Below are positions 8,448 to 45,095 of a DNA stretch of 64,000 nucleotides, piece after piece. Position 1 is the stretch's first letter; the number at the start of each line of letters is the position of its first letter. The position numbers and the translations under genes were made by a program. The notes beneath the pieces were generated by a model, which saw nothing but the letters and a program-made list of their open reading frames with translations, was not told the DNA's origin and did no database searches. The stretch spans positions 4,092,001 through 4,156,000 of the forward strand of contig NZ_CP016793.1 of NCBI RefSeq assembly GCF_001701025.1, written 5' to 3'. The DNA is from Lentzea guizhouensis. Its GTDB lineage: Bacteria > Actinomycetota > Actinomycetes > Mycobacteriales > Pseudonocardiaceae.

Positions 8448-8930
8448 GTGACCGCACTCGATGAAGACTTCGGCTGGACGCTCGGCGTGGTCTTCCGCGC
8501 GTACGTCAAGGCCACGAACGCCGCGGTCGGCGACCTGCCCGGCGGCCACCGCGGCTACCAGATCCTCACCGCCGCGACCCGTGACCAGCCGGAGAGCCAG
8601 TCCGCGCTGTGCCAGCAGCTCGGAATCGACCGCACGGTCATGACCTACCTGCTCGACGACCTCGAACGCGCCTCGCTGGTGACCCGGCGGCCCGCGCCGG
8701 CCGACCGGCGCACCCGGCTGGTGGTGGCGACGGAGGTGGGGCGCACCCGGCTGGCCGAGCTCGACCTGCGGCTCTCCCACGCCGAGGCGCACGTGCTGTC
8801 GGGCCTGCCGGAGGGCGACCGGGAGACGTTCAAGGCGCTGCTCTGCCGGTTGGCCGGGCACGTCAACGAGCTCGACCCGGTGCCGAGCGCGTGCCAGGCC
8901 GTGCAGGACATCGCGGAGAGCAGGCCATGA
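8448..8930 (+). CDS. MarR-family transcriptional regulator
   Basis: A 160-residue winged-helix regulator. Helices around SQSALCQQLGIDRTVMTYLLDDLERASLVTRR form the DNA-reading HTH, and RRPAPADRRTRLVVATEVG is the wing, with the DxR signature of the family. The GTG start is set by the -10-like TACTAT seven bases upstream and by the family's usual N-terminal helix. It is divergent from the LLM-hemerythrin gene, the classic arrangement for autoregulation plus control of the neighbour, and overlaps a small membrane-protein gene downstream (ATGA). The ligand is unknown. Confidence 0.88.
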   Translation: MTALDEDFGWTLGVVFRAYVKATNAAVGDLPGGHRGYQILTAATRDQPESQSALCQQLGIDRTVMTYLLDDLERASLVTRRPAPADRRTRLVVATEVGRTRLAELDLRLSHAEAHVLSGLPEGDRETFKALLCRLAGHVNELDPVPSACQAVQDIAESRP

Positions 8931-9112
8931 CGGCGAAGGTGCTGTACGTCGCCATCGCGCTGCTGGTCGCCGTGGCCGGTGGGCTGGCCGCGGTGTGGTT
9001 CCGGCAGCGGGAAGGACATCACGGCTACTGGCTCTGGCTGGGCGGCGCGTGGGTGTTCGTGATCGTGGCGTTCATCGGTTTGCTGGTCTTCCGGAGCTTC
9101 GGTCTGCTGTAG
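8927..9112 (+). CDS. Small two-span membrane protein
   Basis: A 61-residue protein starting at the ATG that overlaps the MarR stop codon (ATGA). It has two hydrophobic segments, about residues 4-23 and 40-59, joined by a charged/aromatic loop with RQREGHHGYW. The translational overlap is the main reason to believe it. It resembles no family I can name. It may be the direct product controlled by the MarR protein. Confidence 0.6.
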   Translation: MTAKVLYVAIALLVAVAGGLAAVWFRQREGHHGYWLWLGGAWVFVIVAFIGLLVFRSFGLL

Positions 9113-9201
9113 TCCCGATTCCGGAAGATCAGCCGGCGTTCACCTCGGCGACGCGTTGGCCGTTCAGAATGCGCGCCTCCGAGCTCTCCGAGGAGGACCA
9201 C

Positions 9202-11376
9202 GTGGTCCGGTTGTGCACAGGCCTGGTGGCCTTCGTGTTGCTGGTGACGGCCGCGCCCGCCGCGGCGACGGCACCGGCGAGGTTCCAGCGCTTCGACACG
9301 ATGCCGGTGTTCCGCAACAGCTCCGCGGCCGAGCACACCGCCGCTGAGATCGCCGCCGCCACCGCGGACGGCAAACTGGTCGTCTACACCGACTCGCCCG
9401 CGCGCCGGATCGGTTTCGCCAGGCCGGGCCGCAAGATCACCCCCGACGGCGTGCTGGCGATGCCCGGCGAACCCACGTCGGTCGACATCCTCGGCGGCCT
9501 CGCGCTGGTCGCGGTCAACACCTCGAAGTCGTTCACCGAGCCGTCCGGCCTGCTCGTCGTCGTCGACCTGGCGCGGCGCACGATCGTGGCCACGCACGAG
9601 CTCGGCGGCCAGCCGGACTCGATCGACATCTCTAAGGACGGCCGGTACGCCGCCATCGCGATCGAGAACGAGCGCGACGAGGACGTGAACGAGGGCGAGA
9701 TCCCGCAGCTCCCCGCCGGTTACCTGCAGATCGTCGACCTCGTCGGCAAGCCGGACTCGTGGCAGCTGCGCGAGGTCTCGCTGACCGGCCTCGCCGAGGT
9801 CGCCCCGTCCGACCCCGAGCCCGAGTACGTGAGCATCAACGGCCGCAACCAGGTGGCCGTGACGTTGCAGGAGAACAACCACATCGCGGTCGTCGACCTG
9901 CGCTCCGGCCAGGTCCTGCGCCACTTCTCCGCCGGCACCGCCACCGTCGCGGGCGTCGACACCGAGGACGACGGCAAGATCGCGCCGACCGAGACCATCA
10001 CCGCCGCCCGCGAACCCGACGCCATCGCCTGGCTCGACGACCACACCCTCGCCACCGCCGACGAGGGCGACTACGCCGGCGGCTCCCGCACGTGGACGAT
10101 CTTCGACGCCACCTCCGGCCAGGTCGTGTTCTCCTCCGGCAACTCCCTGGAACAGGCCGCCGTCAAGCAGGGCCAGTACCCCGACGGCCGCTCGGACAAC
10201 AAGGGCGTCGAACCGGAAGGCCTCGCCGTGGCCACCTTCGGCCGCGACCGCTACGCCTTCGTGGGCCTGGAACGCGCCAACCTCGTCGCCGTCTACGACG
10301 TCAACAACCCCCGCAAGCCCCGCTTCCTCCAGGCCCTCCCGACCGGCGTCGCCCCAGAAGGCCTGCTGCCGATCCCCGCCACCGGCACCCTCGTGGTCAG
10401 CGCGGAGGAAGACTCCGACGGCATCCGCTCGTCCCTGACCGGCTACCGCCTCACCCGCACCCCGCTGGCCTTGTCGTTGCAGCGCAACCAGGGCACGCCC
10501 TCGATCACCTCCGACGGCATCGGCTTCGGCGCCCTGTCGGGCCTCTCCGGCATCCCCGGCAACGCCCGCGACGTCGTCGCCGTGACCGACGCCGCCTACA
10601 CCCCGACCCGCATCCTGACCATCGACACCCAGGCCGCCCCGGCCCGCGTTCGCCGTGAGTTGACGCTGACCAAGAACGGCGCCGGTGCCGGCTACGACGG
10701 CGAGGGCATCGCCGCCCGTCCCGGCGGCGGCTACTGGCTGGCCGTGGAGGGCGACGGCAAGAAGTCGCCGAACCTGCTGGTGGAAGTCGCCGCCTCGGGT
10801 GCCGTGGTCCGCGAGATCCCGCTGCCTGCCGCTGTGGCTTCCGCTGCGACCAGCAACGGCTTCGAAGGCGTGACGGTCGTCGGCCGCGGCCGTTCCGAGC
10901 AGGTCTGGCTCGCCGTCCAACGCGAGTGGAAGGCCGACCAGCCGGGCCAGGCCACCCTCGCCCGGTACACCCCGGCGACCGACTCGTGGGCGTTCGCCGC
11001 GTACCCGCTCGACGTTCCGCAGGCCGGCGCCTGGATCGGCCTGTCGGAGATCACCGCGCTGAACGACCGCACCCTGCTCGTGCTGGAACGCGACAACCAG
11101 CGCGGCGACGCGGCTCGTGTGAAGAAGGTCTACCGCGTCGACATCAGCCGCCTGACGCCGGTGCCGGCGGGCGTGGTGAAGCCGGTCGTGTCGAAGACGC
11201 TGGCTCGCGACCTGCTGCCGGCACTCGCGGCCGATGGCGCCGCGGTGCACGACAAGCCGGAGGGCCTGGCCGTGGTCGGGTCGTGGCCGGTGCAGCGGCT
11301 GGTCGGCGTGGTGGACAACGACGGCGTGGACGACGCGCCGGGCGAGTCGGTGTTCCTGCGCCTCGGCCGCATCTGA
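9202..11376 (+). CDS. Secreted phytase/esterase-like beta-propeller protein
   Basis: A 724-residue exported protein. The GTG at 9202 follows AGGAGG at 9191-9196 with a five-base gap and starts a clean signal peptide (VVRLCTGLVAFVLLVTAAPAAA). The N-terminal two thirds repeat blade-like segments (GGQPDSIDISKDGRYAAIAI, GVEPEGLAVATFGRDRYAFV), like the choice-of-anchor/YncE-type propellers. The C-terminal third (AGYDGEGIAARPGGGYWLAV, GFEGVTVVGRG, WIGLSEITAL) has the pattern of the esterase-like phytase family. Acidic clusters such as DTEDDGKIAPTET suggest calcium binding. Likely extracellular phosphate-ester hydrolysis, but activity is not proven by motif. A long perfect hairpin follows the stop. 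Confidence 0.75.
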   Translation: MVRLCTGLVAFVLLVTAAPAAATAPARFQRFDTMPVFRNSSAAEHTAAEIAAATADGKLVVYTDSPARRIGFARPGRKITPDGVLAMPGEPTSVDILGGLALVAVNTSKSFTEPSGLLVVVDLARRTIVATHELGGQPDSIDISKDGRYAAIAIENERDEDVNEGEIPQLPAGYLQIVDLVGKPDSWQLREVSLTGLAEVAPSDPEPEYVSINGRNQVAVTLQENNHIAVVDLRSGQVLRHFSAGTATVAGVDTEDDGKIAPTETITAAREPDAIAWLDDHTLATADEGDYAGGSRTWTIFDATSGQVVFSSGNSLEQAAVKQGQYPDGRSDNKGVEPEGLAVATFGRDRYAFVGLERANLVAVYDVNNPRKPRFLQALPTGVAPEGLLPIPATGTLVVSAEEDSDGIRSSLTGYRLTRTPLALSLQRNQGTPSITSDGIGFGALSGLSGIPGNARDVVAVTDAAYTPTRILTIDTQAAPARVRRELTLTKNGAGAGYDGEGIAARPGGGYWLAVEGDGKKSPNLLVEVAASGAVVREIPLPAAVASAATSNGFEGVTVVGRGRSEQVWLAVQREWKADQPGQATLARYTPATDSWAFAAYPLDVPQAGAWIGLSEITALNDRTLLVLERDNQRGDAARVKKVYRVDISRLTPVPAGVVKPVVSKTLARDLLPALAADGAAVHDKPEGLAVVGSWPVQRLVGVVDNDGVDDAPGESVFLRLGRI

Positions 11377-37756: not shown

Positions 37757-38629
37757 ATGATGGACCGGCAGCCGCTCCGCCTCGCGATCTCCGAGGCGGC
37801 CACCATCCTCGCCGACGCCGGCGTGGACAGCCCGCGCGTGGACGCGGAGCTCCTGGCCGCGCACGTGCTCGGGGTCGAGCGCGGGCGGCTGCCGCTCATC
37901 CCGCTGGTCGACCCACCGGTGGTCGACCGGCTGCACGAGCTCGTCCGGGTGCGCGCCTCGCGCATCCCGTTGCAGCACATCGTCGGCTGGGCGCCGATGG
38001 GGTTGATCACGGTCGAGGTCGGGCCCGGTGTGTTCGTGCCGCGGCCGGAGACCGAGCTGTTGATGGAGTGGGCGCTGAAGGCCGTGGCCGCGGTGCCCGC
38101 ACCGGTCGTCGTGGACCTCTGCACGGGCACGGGCGCGCTGGCGTTGTCGATCGCCGCCGCCCGTCCCGACGCGGTGGTGCACGCGGTGGAACTGGACCCG
38201 CAAGCGCTTGCGTGGACGCGTCGCAACGCCGATGCGCGGGCGGCCGCGGGGGACACGCCGATCCGGCTGCACCACGGTGACGCGACCGACCCGGCGCTGC
38301 TGTCCGATCTGGACGGTGCGGTCGACCTGGTGGTGTGCAACCCGCCCTACGTGCCGGAGGGGACGCCGGTGCAGCCCGAGGTCGGCGTGCACGACCCGCA
38401 CCACGCGGTGTTCTCCGGTGCCGACGGGCTGGACGTGATCCGGCACGTCGTGTCGGCCTCCGCGCGGTGGCTGCGGCCAGGCGGGTCCGTCGGGATCGAA
38501 CACGACGACACGCAGGGCGAGTCGGTGCCGGCGCTGCTGTCGGCGCGGCGGGTGCTGACCGACGTCGCCGACCACGCGGACCTGGCCGGGCGGCCGCGGT
38601 TCGCGACCGCCCGCAGGGTGTCCGGCTAG
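37757..38629 (+). CDS. prmC: Release-factor glutamine N5-methyltransferase
   Basis: A 290-residue SAM-dependent enzyme (HemK) that methylates the Gln of the GGQ motif in release factors. The N-terminal helical domain (about 1-80) is followed by the methyltransferase domain with FVPRPETELL, the SAM motif DLCTGTGALALSIA and the catalytic VVCNPPYVPEG (NPPY). It sits 14 bases after lpdA. Two adjacent ATGs (37757, 37760) are possible starts. Confidence 0.93.
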   Translation: MMDRQPLRLAISEAATILADAGVDSPRVDAELLAAHVLGVERGRLPLIPLVDPPVVDRLHELVRVRASRIPLQHIVGWAPMGLITVEVGPGVFVPRPETELLMEWALKAVAAVPAPVVVDLCTGTGALALSIAAARPDAVVHAVELDPQALAWTRRNADARAAAGDTPIRLHHGDATDPALLSDLDGAVDLVVCNPPYVPEGTPVQPEVGVHDPHHAVFSGADGLDVIRHVVSASARWLRPGGSVGIEHDDTQGESVPALLSARRVLTDVADHADLAGRPRFATARRVSG

Positions 38630-38644
38630 AACGGCTGGAACGGG

Positions 38645-38968
38645 CTAGTACAGGGCGTCGAAGGCCTTCGCCAGCTCCTTCATCTGCTCACCCAGGCCTC
38701 GGTCGGCCAGCTTGTCCATCAGGTGCGCGGTGACGTCCTTGCTGGGCTTGGGTTTGCGCGCCTCGGCCCGCAGGTCGTCGACGGCCTCGACGGTCGACGT
38801 GGCCGCCTGGGCGTCGTGGAGGGCCTCCCGCAGCTCGTCGAGCAGCCGCAGCGCCGCGGACACGTCCCTGATGTGTCCGATGTGGACGTCCCCGGCCTTG
38901 GCGCGCCCGCTGGTGCCGATGTTGCTGCCCAGCACCGGCCCGCTGATCTCGAAGTTGTGGTCCCTCAT
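38645..38968 (-). CDS. Small helical protein with N-terminal GPV..SN..GRA.AG motif
   Basis: A 107-residue cytoplasmic protein of unknown family. ATG 38968 overlaps the TGA of the membrane-protein gene (ATGA). Residues 6-31 form a Gly-rich motif, starting FEISGPVLGSNIGTSGRAKA, matching the C-terminus of the upstream protein at 13 of 26 positions. The rest is predicted helical: VSAALRLLDELREALHDAQA, a linker rich in Lys/Pro (ARKPKPSKD), and TAHLMDKLADRGLGEQMKEL. An N-terminal self-assembly-type motif on a helical effector is the layout of bacterial amyloid-signalling partners (inference). It converges on prmC, 15 bases away. Confidence 0.75.
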   Translation of the reverse strand: MRDHNFEISGPVLGSNIGTSGRAKAGDVHIGHIRDVSAALRLLDELREALHDAQAATSTVEAVDDLRAEARKPKPSKDVTAHLMDKLADRGLGEQMKELAKAFDALY

Positions 38969-39057
38969 CCCTTTTCCCTGCCCGTCTTGACGTTGCCCGC
39001 ACGTGCCCGTCCGGTCGAGGCGACGTTGCTGGAGATGACCGGACCGGTGATGTGCAC
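38876..39057 (-). repeat. Matched 26-residue motif on both sides of a gene junction
   Basis: The last part of the 579-residue membrane protein (38980-39057) and the first part of the 107-residue protein (38876-38953) encode the same pattern: I-x-GPV-x2-SN-x4-GRA-x-AG-x-V-x2-G, with 13 identities in 26 ungapped positions and mostly conservative changes elsewhere. The two copies are 26 bases apart, across the overlapping stop and start codons. Confidence 0.75.
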
Positions 39058-40704
39058 GTTGTTGTTCGTCACCTGCATGGCCTGTTCCATGAACTCGGTG
39101 ACCGAGATGCCCTTGCTCTCCAGGAACTCGCCGAGCGTGCGCAGCAGCCGCGACTCCAGGACCTTGACGTAGCGCTCGATGTCGGTGAGCTGGAAGTAGT
39201 TGTCCACCTGGCGTTCGCTGGCGAGCTCGCGCAGGCTGGTGGTGGCGCCGTAGCGTTCCGCGATGTAGGTGCCTTCGGCCTGGTGGACCGGGACCAGCCA
39301 GTTGACCGCCGTGGCGAACCGCCTGGGCAGCGACGCGGGGAACGTGAGCAGGTCGAGCAGCGCCTCCAGCAGCGGCCGGACCGACTGCTCCGGCAGGACG
39401 TCGATCTGCCGGTGCCGCGCCTCGATCGGGTGCAGGATGCAGGGCGTCCACTCGACGTACAGCATCTCCTCGTCGAGCCCGAACGTGAGGTAGGCCGACA
39501 CCACGACGTCGCGGTCCCACGTCTCGACCTGGAACGACCGGAAGTACCGCATCCACTCCATCGGCCGGGTGATCAGACCGTCCACAACGGACCTGTCGAC
39601 GGTCGGTCGCGGTGCGTCGTCCTTGTTGGGCAACACGATCCGCGCCTCGACGTCGTCGATGTGGTCGACCAGCTCGACGGCGGAGATCACCACGCGGTCA
39701 CCGGTGGTGAGGTCCTTGAGGCGGTGTCCGGGGGACAGCGACGGCGAGCGGCCGGTCTTGAGCAGCTCGGCGGTGAGGCGGTCGTAGAGCTCCGGCAGCT
39801 CGAACCCCGGCCGCGGCATGTCCTCGTGCTCCTCGGTCGGCTTGAGCGGCAAGGCCATGGACCACGGCTCGAACATCGTCCCGGAGCCGACGAACGGCCG
39901 GTAGCCGTGGTAGACGGTCACCTGGGCCTGGTCGGCGGGCGCCGGCTCGTCGTCCTCGGCGGGGAAGAGCCGCAACGCGCTGTCGTAGCCGGAGTTCCCG
40001 AGCCTGCGCAGCGTCCACTCGTTGCGCCACAGCTCCTCCGGCCCGCGGCTGGCGCGAAAACCCCTGCGCCGGAAGCTCTTCGTGACCAGCAACCACACCA
40101 GCACCCGGTCGGTCAGCAGCACCGCGAAGATCAGCGCGATGACGACGACCATGACCGCGAGCTCTCCGTCGCTCTGCACCTCGCACGCCGTCGGGTACCG
40201 CCGGCAGTAGGAGGCGCTGGGCCGGTCGAGTTCCTCGATCACCTTGTACATCACGAAGAACAACGCGATCGCACCGGCCACGCCACCCAACGCGAGCGGC
40301 ACGCGCCGGTACGGGGCAACGGCCTTCGGTTGCTTGCCCGGCCGGATGCGCTGCCCGGAGATCACCGCCACGACCGCCGCCGCAACCGCAGCGCCGAGGA
40401 ACCAAAGCCCGAGCTGGAAACCGGTCCCCGTGGCCAGCAGCACGACCGCCAGCACGAGCAACACCGCATCGCGCACCTTGCGCCGCGTGCGCGCCGCCAC
40501 CGCCTCCCGCAACACCGCACCCGCGTTGACACCGGGCGACCGCGGAATGGACCGGGTGCTCTCCACGAGGTACTCGCGAATGGCCGAGTCCGCGAACTCC
40601 TCATCGCGGTGCGCGGCCCCGCAGAGGAAACGAGTCGTGTCGTCGCGTAACCGCGGAGAAACCTCCACCGGATCCGCCGCCGGAGCTGACATTGTCCTGT
40701 CCAC
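38965..40704 (-). CDS. Membrane protein with C-terminal GPV..SN..GRA.AG motif
   Basis: A 579-residue protein I cannot assign to a family. The N-terminal 75 residues are soluble and acidic/basic mixed. Four hydrophobic segments follow: two close together near 80-115 (DAVLLVLAVVLLATGTGF and GLWFLGAAVAAAVVAVIS), then near 135-155 and 185-210. A cytoplasmic region of about 350 residues follows, mixed alpha/beta, with many Arg/Asp/Glu. The tail (about 547-572) carries the Gly-rich motif VHITGPVISSNVASTGRARA, repeated at the start of the next gene. The layout is a membrane receptor or scaffold with a signalling tail (inference). Start GTG 40704 or ATG 40692. Divergent from a TIR gene. Confidence 0.7.
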   Translation of the reverse strand: MDRTMSAPAADPVEVSPRLRDDTTRFLCGAAHRDEEFADSAIREYLVESTRSIPRSPGVNAGAVLREAVAARTRRKVRDAVLLVLAVVLLATGTGFQLGLWFLGAAVAAAVVAVISGQRIRPGKQPKAVAPYRRVPLALGGVAGAIALFFVMYKVIEELDRPSASYCRRYPTACEVQSDGELAVMVVVIALIFAVLLTDRVLVWLLVTKSFRRRGFRASRGPEELWRNEWTLRRLGNSGYDSALRLFPAEDDEPAPADQAQVTVYHGYRPFVGSGTMFEPWSMALPLKPTEEHEDMPRPGFELPELYDRLTAELLKTGRSPSLSPGHRLKDLTTGDRVVISAVELVDHIDDVEARIVLPNKDDAPRPTVDRSVVDGLITRPMEWMRYFRSFQVETWDRDVVVSAYLTFGLDEEMLYVEWTPCILHPIEARHRQIDVLPEQSVRPLLEALLDLLTFPASLPRRFATAVNWLVPVHQAEGTYIAERYGATTSLRELASERQVDNYFQLTDIERYVKVLESRLLRTLGEFLESKGISVTEFMEQAMQVTNNNVHITGPVISSNVASTGRARAGNVKTGREKG

Positions 40705-40855
40705 TTTCTGTCATTGAATCGAGCACGGGACGTCTGTGCTGGTCAAGGGCTTGGTGAACACATATTTCTCGATGTGCTGGCACAATAGCCCCGCCGAGTC
40801 GTCATCGGGCCGAGGTGACGAAAATGCCCATTGTCAATGCGCCGAACGAGGGTAG
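40705..40855. promoter_or_regulatory. Divergent promoter region between membrane-protein and TIR genes
   Basis: This 151-base gap is more A/T-rich than its surroundings. It holds an inverted repeat CACAT-N8-ATGTG (40759-40776) and must contain both promoters, suggesting co-regulation. GAGGG at 40848-40852 is the TIR ribosome site. Confidence 0.4.
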
Positions 40856-41812
40856 ATGACAGCGTCTTTCGACTCTCCGCCGATCCGCTGTTTCCTGAGC
40901 TACGCCCGCCAGGACGACGTGGTCATGGACTTCGTCGCCCCGTTCGCGGCCTCGTTGCGCCAATACGCCTACTCCGACCGCGGCCGTTCCCTCGACGTCT
41001 TCCTGGACCGCGAGGCCATCGGCTGGGGCGACCTGGTCCAACCGGTCCTGCGCTCCGCCGTGCGAGGCGCCACCGTCTTCCTCCCGGTGGTCACCCGCCG
41101 CTACTTCGACCGCCCCTACTGCCGCGAAGAGCTGTTCCTGTTCTACAACCAGGCTTCCGTGGCCGGCGTCCGCACCCTGCTCCTGCCCGTCGTCCTGCTC
41201 GGCGACTCGTTCCTGACCGAGGACAACCCCGACCTGGCCGTGCGCCTCATCGTGGAACGCCAGTTCCGCTCAGTCCGCGAAGCCTGGCTGGAAGGCCCGT
41301 CCTCCCCGACCTGGCGCCGCACGATGCTCTCGCTGGCCGGCGCCCTCGTCGACGCCGTGGAAGAAGCCGAACTGGCCCTGGCCGCACCTCCGCCTGTTCT
41401 CGACGCGGACATCTCCGCCGAGCTCGACCGCTTCTCCCTCGACGTGCGAACGGTGATCGCCGAAACCCGTTCCGTCATCACGGAGTTCCAATCCCTGGTC
41501 GGCGGCGACCCCTCACTGCTGCTTCCCGGCGCCCACCGCCTCCGCGAAGCCGGCTGGACCTTCGAACGCCGCGCCTTCGAGCTCGACCGCCTGCTCCGCG
41601 CCACCGGCCGCTCCTTCCCGGCAGCCCCCACCGCCGAACTCCTCGCCCTCCTCCCCGGCATCGAAGCCCTCCTCACCAGCACCCGCCGAGCCGAAGCCAC
41701 GAACGCCCCGGTCCGCCGCACGATGACGGTGTTCCGCGAGGGCCTCACCGCGCTGCGCAGCGGCCTGTGCATGGTGAAGTCTTGGTCAGAGTTGCCAAAT
41801 CCTGGCCAATAA
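40856..41812 (+). CDS. TIR-domain protein
   Basis: A 318-residue protein with an N-terminal TIR domain (about 10-145): RCFLSYARQDD (box 1), SLDVFLDREAIGWGDLVQP, ATVFLPVVTRRYFDRPYCRE with the CxxE that in NADase TIRs supplies the catalytic Glu (Glu92), and TLLLPVVLLGDSF. The C-terminal half is all helical with no known domain (SFLDV... style LDRFSLDVRTVIAETRSVI). Bacterial TIR domains usually hydrolyse NAD+ or make cyclic ADP-ribose signals in immunity. No signal peptide. It is divergent from the membrane/small-protein operon, which suggests one functional module (inference). Confidence 0.82.
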   Translation: MTASFDSPPIRCFLSYARQDDVVMDFVAPFAASLRQYAYSDRGRSLDVFLDREAIGWGDLVQPVLRSAVRGATVFLPVVTRRYFDRPYCREELFLFYNQASVAGVRTLLLPVVLLGDSFLTEDNPDLAVRLIVERQFRSVREAWLEGPSSPTWRRTMLSLAGALVDAVEEAELALAAPPPVLDADISAELDRFSLDVRTVIAETRSVITEFQSLVGGDPSLLLPGAHRLREAGWTFERRAFELDRLLRATGRSFPAAPTAELLALLPGIEALLTSTRRAEATNAPVRRTMTVFREGLTALRSGLCMVKSWSELPNPGQ

Positions 41813-42043: not shown

Positions 42044-42799
42044 TCATCGGTCGCTCGTCATCGCCAGGATCTGGCCGAGGTGGCGGGCGAGACCCATGTT
42101 GTCGGCGGGCGCGATGGTGAACCAGCCGGTGCGCAACTGGACGTTGGCGTAGCGGCCGGTTTGCGTGTCGATCCAGGTGACCGGCGGGTAGTCGCGCTTG
42201 GTGCGGCCCTGTTCCATCTGGACGAGGAAGTGGCCGTTGCCGAGTGCGGGGCCGGTCAGCATCTGCTTGGCGAGGCGGACGTCGTCGTTCTCGGTGGTGC
42301 GGACGGCTTGGCGGAAGCCCTCCTGTTGCTGTGGCTGCTGGGCCTCGAAGGCCTGCGTGGGCACCGTCACCAGCTTGCCCTGGCCCGGCCGGCTCTGGGG
42401 CATGGCGCCGGCGAGGCTGGTGGCGATCTCGTTGGGCTGCACCTGGGTCAGCGTCATCGTGGTGTCCTCTTGGGACACCAGCACGGCGTAGCCGCCGCGT
42501 GCGACCACGCAGGCGCGAACGAGCTTCTCCTGGCTCATGTCCGGCATGCACAGTGCGATGACGCGCAACTCGGGACGCGCCAACAGGTTCAGCGCGTCCT
42601 CGAGGTCCGGCTCAGGGCGGCCGCGGCGGGCGAGGCCGCGGCGTTCGAGGTCCTGGTGCACGGCGGCCTTGATGCGGTCGCGTTCGTCGAGCGTGTCGCC
42701 ATGCGAGGTGATGTCGAACGGGTAGGGCACGCTCCCCGCCCGCAGGCCCTCCCAGAGGACCTCGAACGCGGGCAGGGAGAGCTGCGCGATCTGCCTCAT
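42044..42799 (-). CDS. EspG-like ESX secretion-associated chaperone
   Basis: A 251-residue cytoplasmic protein. It begins MRQIAQLSLPAFEVLWEGLR and continues LPYPFDI-type strands, DLEDALNLLARPELRVIALC and GYAVLVSQEDTTMTLTQVQP, a pattern I know from actinobacterial EspG/ESX-associated proteins, which bind PPE-type substrates before secretion. The length fits (mycobacterial EspG about 270-290). ATG 42799 overlaps the stop of the PPE-like gene (ATGA), as expected for a chaperone and its substrate. Confidence 0.78.
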   Translation of the reverse strand: MRQIAQLSLPAFEVLWEGLRAGSVPYPFDITSHGDTLDERDRIKAAVHQDLERRGLARRGRPEPDLEDALNLLARPELRVIALCMPDMSQEKLVRACVVARGGYAVLVSQEDTTMTLTQVQPNEIATSLAGAMPQSRPGQGKLVTVPTQAFEAQQPQQQEGFRQAVRTTENDDVRLAKQMLTGPALGNGHFLVQMEQGRTKRDYPPVTWIDTQTGRYANVQLRTGWFTIAPADNMGLARHLGQILAMTSDR

Positions 42800-44080
42800 C
42801 CGCCGATCACCGGCGGCGCGACCATGCGATCGTCGTCGAAGAACTCGTCGGTGGGCACCAAGTAGTTCGACTTGTGTTCCTTGTCCTCCGCGCCCTGGCC
42901 AGCACCAGCACCAGCACCACCGCCGGCACCCATGCCAGCCGCACCGGCTGCGCCACCACGTCCGGCGCCACCCGCGCCCGCGCCCACCGGTGCCGGCACC
43001 TGCGCCGCCCATGACGCCGGCGCCACCGGGGTTGGCCGGGCCGAAGCTGCCCATGCCGCGCCGGCACCTGCGCCGGCACCTGCACCTGCACCGCCGGGTC
43101 CGCCGCCCATGCCGCCGGGCCGCCCATGCCGCGGCCACCACCGGACCACCAGGGCCGCCGCCGGGACCGCCTGGGCGCATGCCGCCGGGGCCGCCCATCG
43201 GCGGTCGGCCGGTCTGGTTGCCACCGGGAGGCCGCATGCCGGGCGGGAAGATGCCGGGTGGGGTGCCGATCGGCGGGCGGTTCTGGTTGTTGCCGCCGTT
43301 CTGGTTCTGGTTGTTGTTCGGCAGGTTGTTGGAGTCGTTGACCTGCGGTGCCACCCAGGAGGCGTTGGTCGTGCCGTTGCCGGTGCTGCCGGGGGGCGGC
43401 ATGCCGGGCATGCCCGTGGTGCCGGGCGGGCGGTAGCCGGGGGTGTTGCCCAGGGTGTTCTGGTTGTTGTTGTTATTGGGCGGTTGCGTGATGCCCTGGT
43501 CGTTGGTGACCTTGGGCGGCGCTTCCATGGTGGGCATGGACATGGCAGCCGACATCATCGTGTTGTCGCGCGTTTGCATGACTTGCACGGCTTCAGCCTT
43601 GGCGTCCTGCTGTTTGTTGTAGGTGGAGATCATCTCGATGGGCGCGCCCACCATCATGATCGGGCTGATCATGCCGCCCTTGTTCGTGAACCAGTCACCT
43701 GCGATCTTCAACGGGTTGAAGCTCACCGGCTCCGGCATGCGGTTGTTCGCGTTGACTGCCGCGTCCCGCTGCTGCTCGATAGCACCCGACGTCTTGTAAA
43801 ACGTCTCGCCCGTGTGTTCCACGAACGTGCCTACCTTGTTCAACGCGTTACGTACGCCGTCGGCGGCCTGCCCCGTCCACGCGCTCTGGGACCCGTTGAC
43901 GAGGATCTTGAAGTCGGTCGCCAACTCCCGGAACGTGTCACCGAAAGACTTCCAGATGTCCGCGGTGTCAGTGGCCGTGTCCGGGGCGTAGTTATCGGTC
44001 ACGAGCGACTTCATGTGCTCGTGTTTCTGGCCCGGATAGTTGTCGTTCGGTGTCGGAACAGCGGCCTGGGTGGGCGCCAT
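42796..44080 (-). CDS. WXG/PPE-like ESX substrate, frame broken in its Gly-rich part
   Basis: The N-terminal 200 residues are helical with the WxG turn in NGSQSAWTGQAADGVRNAL, then an Asn/Gln/Pro-rich and a Gly/Pro/Met-rich tail. The expected C-terminus (KSNYLVPTDEFFDDDRMVAP then PVIGG) lies in a different frame. Following the Gly-rich coding pattern, the frame changes near 43141, 43117, 43057 (each one base short) and 42985 (one base extra). All four fall in G/C runs. Pieces such as GMGSFGPANPGGAGVMGG in the first frame and GAGGAGRGGAAGAAGMGAGG in the last show that both are coding. Either sequencing errors or recent decay. Coordinates span the whole gene. Confidence 0.7.
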
Positions 44081-44103
44081 GAGAATTTCCCCCTCGGGCG
44101 TCG

Positions 44104-44643
44104 TTACGGCAGCTTCGGTGCGATGAGCTCAGCGGCTTTGGTCGCGCGTTCACACGCGGCCGCAGTGTCGGTCGACGACGCCAGCATGTTCGCCAGCACG
44201 GCCACAGACGATGTATCGCTTGCCGAGATCAGGACGGCGCAACTGGACTTCGATCCGTCCTGAGCCTCGACCTTGGTGGCGGAGAACTTGCCGACCTTGA
44301 CCTCGGAGACCTTGTCACCCTGAGCGTTCAGGTCCTTGACGCCCTGGCTGGCGCGGATGCCGACTTGCAGGCCTCCGTTGCCAGGGATCGTCCAGTCGCA
44401 GATGGCAGCGGGGCCGATTTTGTCCTCTTCGCCCGGCAACTTGGCGTCGAATGTCGTCGCCTCAGCATCGGTGAGGAGATCGCAGGGCTTGAGAGCGTTC
44501 AGGCCCTGCGACGAGTTGTTGTCGGACGTCGGCGTGCTGCTGCCGCCTGTCGTCGGAGTCGGAGTCGGGTCTCCCGCAACGCCGGAGCAGCCGGCGGTGA
44601 GCGCAGAAAGACCGACCAGGGTGGCGATCAGGATGCGATTCAT
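44104..44643 (-). CDS. DUF3558-like lipoprotein
   Basis: A 179-residue exported lipoprotein. The signal peptide MNRILIATLVGLSALTAGCSG carries the lipobox LTAGC. A Thr/Ser/Pro linker leads to the DUF3558 domain with LKPCDLLTDAEATTF, AICDWTIPG and SSCAVLISAS, whose four Cys probably form two disulfides. ATG 44643 overlaps the stop of the upstream gene (ATGA). DUF3558 lipoproteins recur in ESX-associated operons of this order; the function is not known. Confidence 0.83.
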   Translation of the reverse strand: MNRILIATLVGLSALTAGCSGVAGDPTPTPTTGGSSTPTSDNNSSQGLNALKPCDLLTDAEATTFDAKLPGEEDKIGPAAICDWTIPGNGGLQVGIRASQGVKDLNAQGDKVSEVKVGKFSATKVEAQDGSKSSCAVLISASDTSSVAVLANMLASSTDTAAACERATKAAELIAPKLP

Positions 44644-45095
44644 GACTTCCCGTTGATCTTCTTGAACGAGTCGGAGCCTGCCTCGTCGACATTCTTGTAC
44701 GATGCGCGGCTCTTCTCGATCTGCGTCTTCAGCGACTCGATGGCGCGGTCGATGTCGTCGATCTGTTTGATCGCGGCTTGGCCGAACGTCGTGTTGGCCT
44801 TGGCGATCTCCATCGCGTATCCGCCGCCGATCTTCATGTTCAAGCTCAGCTGGTCCCGCTTGCGCCGGATCTTGGCGAGCTCGTCCCGCATCTCGTTGAG
44901 CTTTTTGATCATGGCGTCGACCAGGTTGGGGTCGACGGACAGCTGCTGGGTCTCGACGGCTACCTCGACTGCCTTGCTGGCAGCGAGCACCGCGGCGAGA
45001 CCTCCCCCTAGAACAGCGCCCCACGAGGCGTTGGCCACGGCTTGCTGAGCAATGCTCGTGCCGACTACGCCGCTGGTGCTGATTGGTTCTGACAC
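44640..45095 (-). CDS. Coiled-coil protein, first gene of the ESX accessory operon
   Basis: A 151-residue protein. A Gly/Ala-rich stretch (NASWGAVLGGGLAAVLAAS) near residues 23-41 could be a weak membrane segment. It is followed by a long charged helix (DPNLVDAMIKKLNEMRDELA and KIRRKRDQLSLNM) and a second helix (QIDDIDRAIESLKTQIEKSR). The size and helical hairpin recall WXG-like helpers, but there is no WxG turn. It leads the operon that continues with the lipoprotein, PPE-like and EspG-like genes. Confidence 0.6.
   Translation of the reverse strand: MSEPISTSGVVGTSIAQQAVANASWGAVLGGGLAAVLAASKAVEVAVETQQLSVDPNLVDAMIKKLNEMRDELAKIRRKRDQLSLNMKIGGGYAMEIAKANTTFGQAAIKQIDDIDRAIESLKTQIEKSRASYKNVDEAGSDSFKKINGKS

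Follow-up and report, generated by a model that had tools for sequence, protein, structure and literature searches.

The question raised by this locus is whether a membrane protein and the small protein encoded directly after it, which share a short motif across their gene junction, form a signalling pair, and whether the TIR-domain gene lying divergent from them belongs to the same system. The genes are found in a 64,000 nt stretch of the Lentzea guizhouensis genome (contig NZ_CP016793.1, nt 4,092,001 – 4,156,000; hereafter the window, with positions counted from its first letter). P2 (579 residues; nt 38965 – 40704, minus strand) is a receptor-like membrane protein with four long membrane helices, a cytosolic alpha/beta domain and a C-terminal motif. 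Its stop codon overlaps the start of the small partner, P1 (107 residues; nt 38645 – 38968, minus strand), by 4 nt (ATGA, nt 38965 – 38968, minus strand), which likely results in translational coupling. P1 carries the motif at its N-terminus, followed by a four-helix, DUF5955-like body. The two genes, their overlap and the divergent TIR gene had all been correctly placed in a preliminary description of the locus. P2 and P1 probably constitute a two-gene receptor-effector relay that operates by like-with-like contact between the motifs, similar to bacterial amyloid signalling sequences (BASS) but with a membrane receptor and with the motif ends reversed. Four things are seen directly: the motif pair itself, its co-variation within operons, the swapping of effector domains, and the loss of the P1 motif where P2 is broken.

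When aligned by eye, the tail of P2 (VHITGPVISSNVASTGRARAGNVKTG) and the start of P1 (FEISGPVLGSNIGTSGRAKAGDVHIG) are identical at 13 of 26 residues, as first reported in the preliminary description. The motifs occupy residues 547 – 575 of P2 (NNNVHITGPVISSNVASTGRARAGNVKTG; nt 38980 – 39066, minus strand) and residues 3 – 31 of P1 (DHNFEISGPVLGSNIGTSGRAKAGDVHIG; nt 38876 – 38962, minus strand). With P1 as query, blastp matched the P2 tail (E-values 1e-6 to 2e-4) in every one of the 18 Lentzea loci where this tail is retained. Since this match is found in every such locus, and since matching recurs in 69 divergent operons (below), the likeness is not due to chance. A DNA pattern of GPVxxSN-like codons occurs at 7 places in the genome of the window, two of which are the P1 and P2 motifs and one a further locus, L157 (loci and genomes are denoted by L and G numbers). 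A profile of the small partners recovered P1 from the same genome at E 1e-24, together with nine more matches (E 0.05 to 3.5).

Relatives of P2 were gathered from 60 named loci and from four overlapping genome sets: 149 related genomes, a phylum set (296), a class set (394) and an order set (397). They were present in 41, 11, 68 and 53 genomes of the four sets, respectively, the E limits differing by search; 15 of the 68 class genomes have only a tail-less branch of P2, so that 53 of 394 remain. Across these relatives the body of P2 is conserved and its tail is hypervariable, and the next gene mostly begins with a copy of the tail of its own P2. Examples are GVQINGGTQNGPVTGG in tail and partner alike (GVQINGGTQNGPVTGG, L221), NNGVINTGEMSNVQNQPGALG with NSGIQNSGSMQNVQNQPGAFN (L149) and VTISGGQQHGINFGKAEAGSHFG with VHFTGGQQHGINFGTAESGSHFG (L223). 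From 203 non-identical P2 proteins, 173 were scored and 30 dropped (28 had no partner open reading frame by coding score, and in 2 the match ended early), and the main statistics were computed on 69 operons dereplicated below 45% P2 identity. Gene calling was by a simple codon score, with approximate starts and some genes missed, and at L251 and L260 a later gene was taken as the partner. Tails scored a mean of 70.6 against their own partners versus 29.0 against the partners of other operons. The own partner ranked first in 47 of the 69 operons and among the top three in 61, and in 20,000 permutations none reached the observed value (maximum 2468, observed 4874). Own scores exceeded cross scores in 5668/5677, 1119/1157 and 236/255 operon pairs at P2 identities of 25–35, 35–45 and 45–60%, respectively (the pairs are not independent), and in 123/201 and 28/98 pairs at 60–80 and 80–95%, so that the difference disappears between close relatives, as expected. 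The motifs thus diverge between operons yet remain matched within each of them, and the pairing proposed earlier, of a membrane receptor-like protein with a C-terminal motif and a partner with an N-terminal motif, matched in the manner of BASS pairs, is conserved despite this divergence. The same applies at the prmC locus, which is common to Lentzea, Umezawaea, Saccharothrix (S. coeruleofusca) and Actinokineospora: the motifs differ and the matching holds. The partner that follows P2 in A. diospyrosa (L194) is reduced to a remnant.

It is very improbable that the motif is simply a common glycine-rich tail, or a pair of homogenised DNA copies at the junction, with no paired function. The first of these possibilities had been named as one that would undo the proposal, and it is contradicted by the own-pair matching across the 69 operons. 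In 65 of them the own motif beats more than 95% of composition-shuffled tails, which fail to match, and the P2 tail shows no match to the partner body (score 21.9). Homogenisation would gain from a codon identity that lies 3 standard deviations above expectation overall (62.5% of 901 identical motif residues in 58 operons share a codon, against an expected 58.6%, standard deviation 1.3) and from the near-identical motif codons of L314 and L326. The small overall excess could, however, come from codon bias shared within each genome, and most operons do not show a codon identity in the motifs that clearly exceeds the value for the flanking genes. In the window only 6 of 14 identical residues use the same codon, which indicates that this motif pair is not a recent DNA duplication, and, as described below, the motif decays where P2 has been lost. 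In L314 (0.92), L326 (0.84) and also L223 the motif codons are nearly identical between the two genes, which suggests recent copying from one gene to the other at these loci.

The domains that follow the partner motif are interchangeable. Among 175 P2 proteins with a called partner, the partner was DUF5955-like in 142, PNP in 16, EAD1 in 4, cyclase-like in 3 (a label given by eye, as there was no Pfam match) and unassigned in 10; after dereplication at 60% the corresponding numbers were 75, 15, 3, 2 and 7 (total 102). The own motif beat more than 95% of shuffles in 139/142 DUF5955-like partners (all except L222, L252 and L268), 15/16 PNP, 2/4 EAD1 and both of the cyclase-like partners that were scored. 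Pfam confirms PNP_UDP_1 and EAD1 in partners, and the partner at L293 consists of PNP followed by bDLD3 and Death domains. Seven partners were read by hand and scored separately, outside the main statistics. In a Lentzea paralogue operon (L116), P2 is directly partnered by one of these seven, a motif-TIR protein (TIR_2, E 1.4e-11) that ranks 2 of 70 with an own score of 61, which none of 200 shuffles reached. The others, with their own ranks, are motif-PNP proteins at L118 (3), L310 (3) and L312 (2), EAD1 at L308 (3), and helical partners at L321 (1) and L327 (1). The cyclase-like domain begins near GFVxDIVxxG at L207, L208 and L225, and by eye neither the partner nor P2 has a motif at L225. 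Some partners (L253, L259, L262, L303, L306, L324) appear by eye to have two tandem copies of the motif before the helical body, and at a paralogous Lentzea locus (L102, gene at 8472-10343) P2 and its partner are naturally fused in frame, with a single copy of the motif.

A further kind of evidence comes from the natural loss of P2 in Lentzea. P2 with its tail is retained at 18 of 25 Lentzea loci (split over two contigs at one), each of which has an uninterrupted P1 motif. At the other seven (L078–L084) P2 is truncated or was not detected, and in all seven the P1 motif is disrupted: by a one-residue insertion (L078), by a number of changes at conserved positions (L079), or by shortening of 4 (L080), 7 (L081), 11 (L082) or 21 residues (L083, L084). 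The differing lesions suggest several independent events, and two of the genomes concerned (G003 and G017) have an intact pair at another locus. The helical body of P1 at these seven loci is still 77–84% identical to that of the window. As the motif decays where P2 is lost while the body survives, the role of the motif seems tied to P2, and that of the body to another use. If P2 were instead an inhibitor of a harmful P1, the P1 bodies would hardly outlive its loss in seven loci.

In the AlphaFold2 model of P2 (mean predicted local distance difference test score, pLDDT, 85.9; predicted template modelling score 0.86) the membrane helices lie near residues 61–210 and the cytosolic alpha/beta domain at about 259–550, and the tail (553–579) has pLDDT values below 50. 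On reading of the sequence, Arg/Lys-rich stretches precede helix 1, separate helices 2 and 3 and follow helix 4, an arrangement that would place both termini inside. The window P2 matches no Pfam, NCBIfam or PADLOC family at E≤0.001, and no NOD-like receptor (NLR) domain was found in the 61 members of the family scanned with Pfam at E≤0.001. One of 61 P2 relatives matches the PADLOC model mad3 (6e-4). Directly 5' of P2, at L073–L076, L087, L090 and L095, is a gene whose Thr-rich product appears to be anchored in the membrane and to expose an outward-looking domain, and such a gene was also read by eye at L194, L208 and L226. A second membrane gene (cluster 20) is divergent. Both may represent a sensor arm of the P2-P1 unit that has been lost in the window.

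The model of P1 has helices at residues 30–52, 57–70, 77–88 and 93–106, and residues 1–29 have pLDDT values below 50. DUF5955 (PF19380) matches 20 of 49 aligned P1 family members at E≤0.01; the relative L113 scores 34.0 bits (cut-off 27.1), and the window P1 itself has no DUF5955 match in the Pfam scan. This family appears to supply the body of the small P2 partners, the matches being confined to the helices and absent from the motif. Stand-alone DUF5955 proteins occur in three genomes of a single genus that is probably Streptomyces; these three proteins have neither the motif nor a P2 neighbour. In most representatives the DUF5955-like body has a hydrophobic end: over 51 of them the mean hydropathy of this end is 0.69 (above 0.5 in 71%), that of the remaining body -0.61. 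By eye the window P1 is less hydrophobic there than most. From this feature an action on membranes might be guessed.

The TIR protein (318 residues; nt 40856 – 41812, plus strand) had been put forward as the third component. It matches PF13676 (TIR_2; E 3.4e-9, 37.7 bits, cut-off 28) and has Glu92, within YCREEL, at what we take to be the usual NADase position. The earlier observation that it lacks the motif agrees with our inspection by eye. Its link to the pair was upheld in part. In 24 Lentzea genomes ten close orthologues (at least 62% identity) were found, all ten beside the P2-P1 unit (two further matches, at 33% identity, lie elsewhere), and an intact TIR gene is present at 10 of the 18 Lentzea loci with P2 and at none of the seven without it, remnants being visible at L078 and L080. 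L. terrae and L. flava have the TIR gene and P2-P1 together at a second locus, one lacking prmC, and the L116 operon provides a motif-TIR partner. These observations could be explained if the divergent TIR protein were the true effector in Lentzea, activated through P1 or P2, a possibility that we take seriously and nevertheless doubt. TIR is missing from 8 of the 18 intact Lentzea pairs, and four loci have two genes between TIR and P2, one of which overlaps TIR by 4 nt. Phmmer searches of the longer loci with the window and L116 TIR proteins matched no called gene outside Lentzea, by a gene calling that misses some genes, the L116 TIR included. P2-P1 units thus regularly occur with no TIR beside them, an outcome that the preliminary description had itself named as one that would refute its proposal, and TIR as a fixed third part is not sustained. 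It is a Lentzea companion, linked to the unit but dispensable and outside the conserved core, for which a role as an accessory effector is plausible. With Thoeris and other TIR NADase defence systems the locus shares a TIR domain, encoded next to the pair, whose glutamate sits where expected. The window TIR, however, scores only 17.4 bits against the type III Thoeris model (cut-off 220) and is dispensable. Its only PADLOC match is a weak one to PDC-S66 (E 0.016), and at E≤1 P1 and P2 have none, in a library that covers the systems described by 2023.

The relay proposed for P2 and P1 would work as follows. A signal from the envelope or membrane would reach P2, whose C-terminal motif would become exposed or clustered and bind the matching N-terminal motif of the partner, most likely by stacking or templating of beta-arches as in amyloid signalling motifs. 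The partner domain would thereby be concentrated at the membrane and switched on, the swappable effector being DUF5955-like here and PNP, EAD1, PNP-death, TIR or cyclase-like elsewhere. The motifs have a median length of 27 residues, lie at the very ends of the proteins (in 58 operons the matched motif of the partner starts at a median of residue 5.5), contain 20% Gly and 10.5% Asn, are poor in charged residues, and are modelled as unstructured in the P1 and P2 monomers. Their composition and lack of predicted structure are as expected of signalling amyloids, and speak against an alternative in which the motifs assemble into a stable complex of a non-amyloid kind, such as one shared beta-solenoid, which tethers P1 to the receptor or keeps it inactive, with no templated polymerisation. 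Such a complex would give the same co-variation, the shortness and terminal position of the motifs would suit it, and one motif type is weakly similar to the rungs of the LpxA beta-helix (E 0.038). We consider it unlikely.

Several observations weigh against the proposed relay. The own partner is not ranked first in 22 of the 69 operons, and in eight (L204, L222, L226, L252, L266, L307, L345, L353) it ranks tenth or lower; some of these are probably due to a wrongly called start or gene, while L204 and L222 look like true mismatches. The EAD1 partners L307 and L313 and the PNP partner L342 do not beat their shuffles. The persistence of the P1 body without motif and P2 at seven Lentzea loci points to a use outside the relay, and an effector role of the DUF5955-like body is putative. 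Amyloid templating is inferred, the monomer models being silent on the complex. Searches of phages gave no match, and those of plasmids gave five weak records.

There are also P2 proteins for which no partner was seen. A motif-like tail without an adjacent partner is found in Crossiella (L189, L191) and at L086 and L087 of one related genus. Among 292 sampled cyanobacterial genomes, one (Phormidium, L220) has P2, again with a motif-like tail and no partner found directly downstream. The tail-less branch belongs to one genus, probably Streptomyces (L151, L152 and many matches of the class set), and ends at about model position 488, before the motif; no partner was seen adjoining P2 at L151 and L152.

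BASS motifs are short, Gly/Asn-rich sequences held by the proteins of adjacent genes, fall into many families and are frequent in multicellular Actinobacteria. They were reportedly described by Dyrka and colleagues in 2020 for NLR-BELL gene pairs. The likeness to P2-P1 lies in the short motif common to proteins of adjacent genes, with the receptor and effector copies matched within each pair. The BASS receptor, however, is an NLR (NB-ARC or NACHT) with an N-terminal motif and the effector has its motif at the C-terminus, whereas P2 has no NLR domain and carries the motif C-terminally, and that of the partner is N-terminal. The BASS effector carries a BELL domain; the P2 partners match DUF5955 (the main type), PNP, EAD1 and TIR, and their helical body may bear a remote likeness to BELL. 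Because two defining features of BASS, the NLR with an N-terminal motif and the effector with a C-terminal one, are thus not found, P2-P1 is not classed with them. Only at L363 does a P1 relative neighbour a STAND-like NTPase whose N-terminus bears a motif. There (L363:553-5267) a motif-bearing P1 relative (A2 profile E 1.3e-7, no Pfam match) is encoded between a caspase-WD40 gene and a 703-residue NTPase whose own start matches that motif (TSIHIGGNLTGQVNVGNSNT / TSVHVGGDVVGQLVVGDHNI; score 70, reached by none of 500 shuffles) and which is only weakly STAND-like (AAA_16 27.3 bits, cut-off 32.6; nSTAND1 19.4 bits, cut-off 27.1). From this one locus it would seem that P2 and NLR-type receptors make use of the same small effectors. 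A DUF5955-like motif protein of genome G076 (L362:1519-2691; E 1.2e-10), encoded directly after an FHA-domain gene, has a start that fails to match the P2 tail of its genome (0.60–0.98 of shuffles reach the score for the four tails compared). With EAD and bacterial death-like domain systems (PF19955, PF20690) the P2 operons share the EAD1 and bDLD3 domains of partners and an adaptor-effector modularity; the matching element in those systems is a folded helical domain, versus a co-drifting short motif here.

In the window the gene order is prmC (nt 37757 – 38629, plus strand), P1 and P2 on the minus strand, the divergent TIR gene, an ESX-like block (nt 42044-44990) and then sua5, the names prmC, sua5 and ESX being assigned from the sequences. 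The prmC flank is conserved and marks orthologous loci in the four genera named above; the ESX-like genes adjoin the TIR gene, and similar genes recur at this place in many Lentzea genomes. The apparent vertical inheritance at this core locus would also suit a housekeeping role in the envelope or in cell division instead of immunity, as would the stand-alone, motif-less DUF5955 proteins and the weak similarity of P2 to SepX/GlpR (15.6 bits, against a cut-off of 110). Such a role is improbable given the EAD1, bDLD3, PNP and TIR partners, domains typical of conflict systems, the patchy presence of P2 in the class genomes and its repeated decay in Lentzea.

Whether the P2 operons of actinobacteria represent a large class of immune or stress signalling systems that is as yet undescribed seems to us evenly balanced. 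Such a class would combine a membrane receptor with interchangeable effectors and operon-private, amyloid-like motifs, the motifs acting as an orthogonal code that keeps parallel pathways separate within one cell, and its small effectors would be shared with STAND-type receptors. If this is true, prion-like motif signalling in bacteria would extend beyond NLRs to a transmembrane receptor family present, with its tail, in 53 of 394 genomes of the class. The co-varying motif pairs would then provide a large natural test of how like-with-like recognition gains specificity, as well as a ready assay of whether one sensor has PNP, EAD1, TIR and DUF5955 domains as its parallel outputs.

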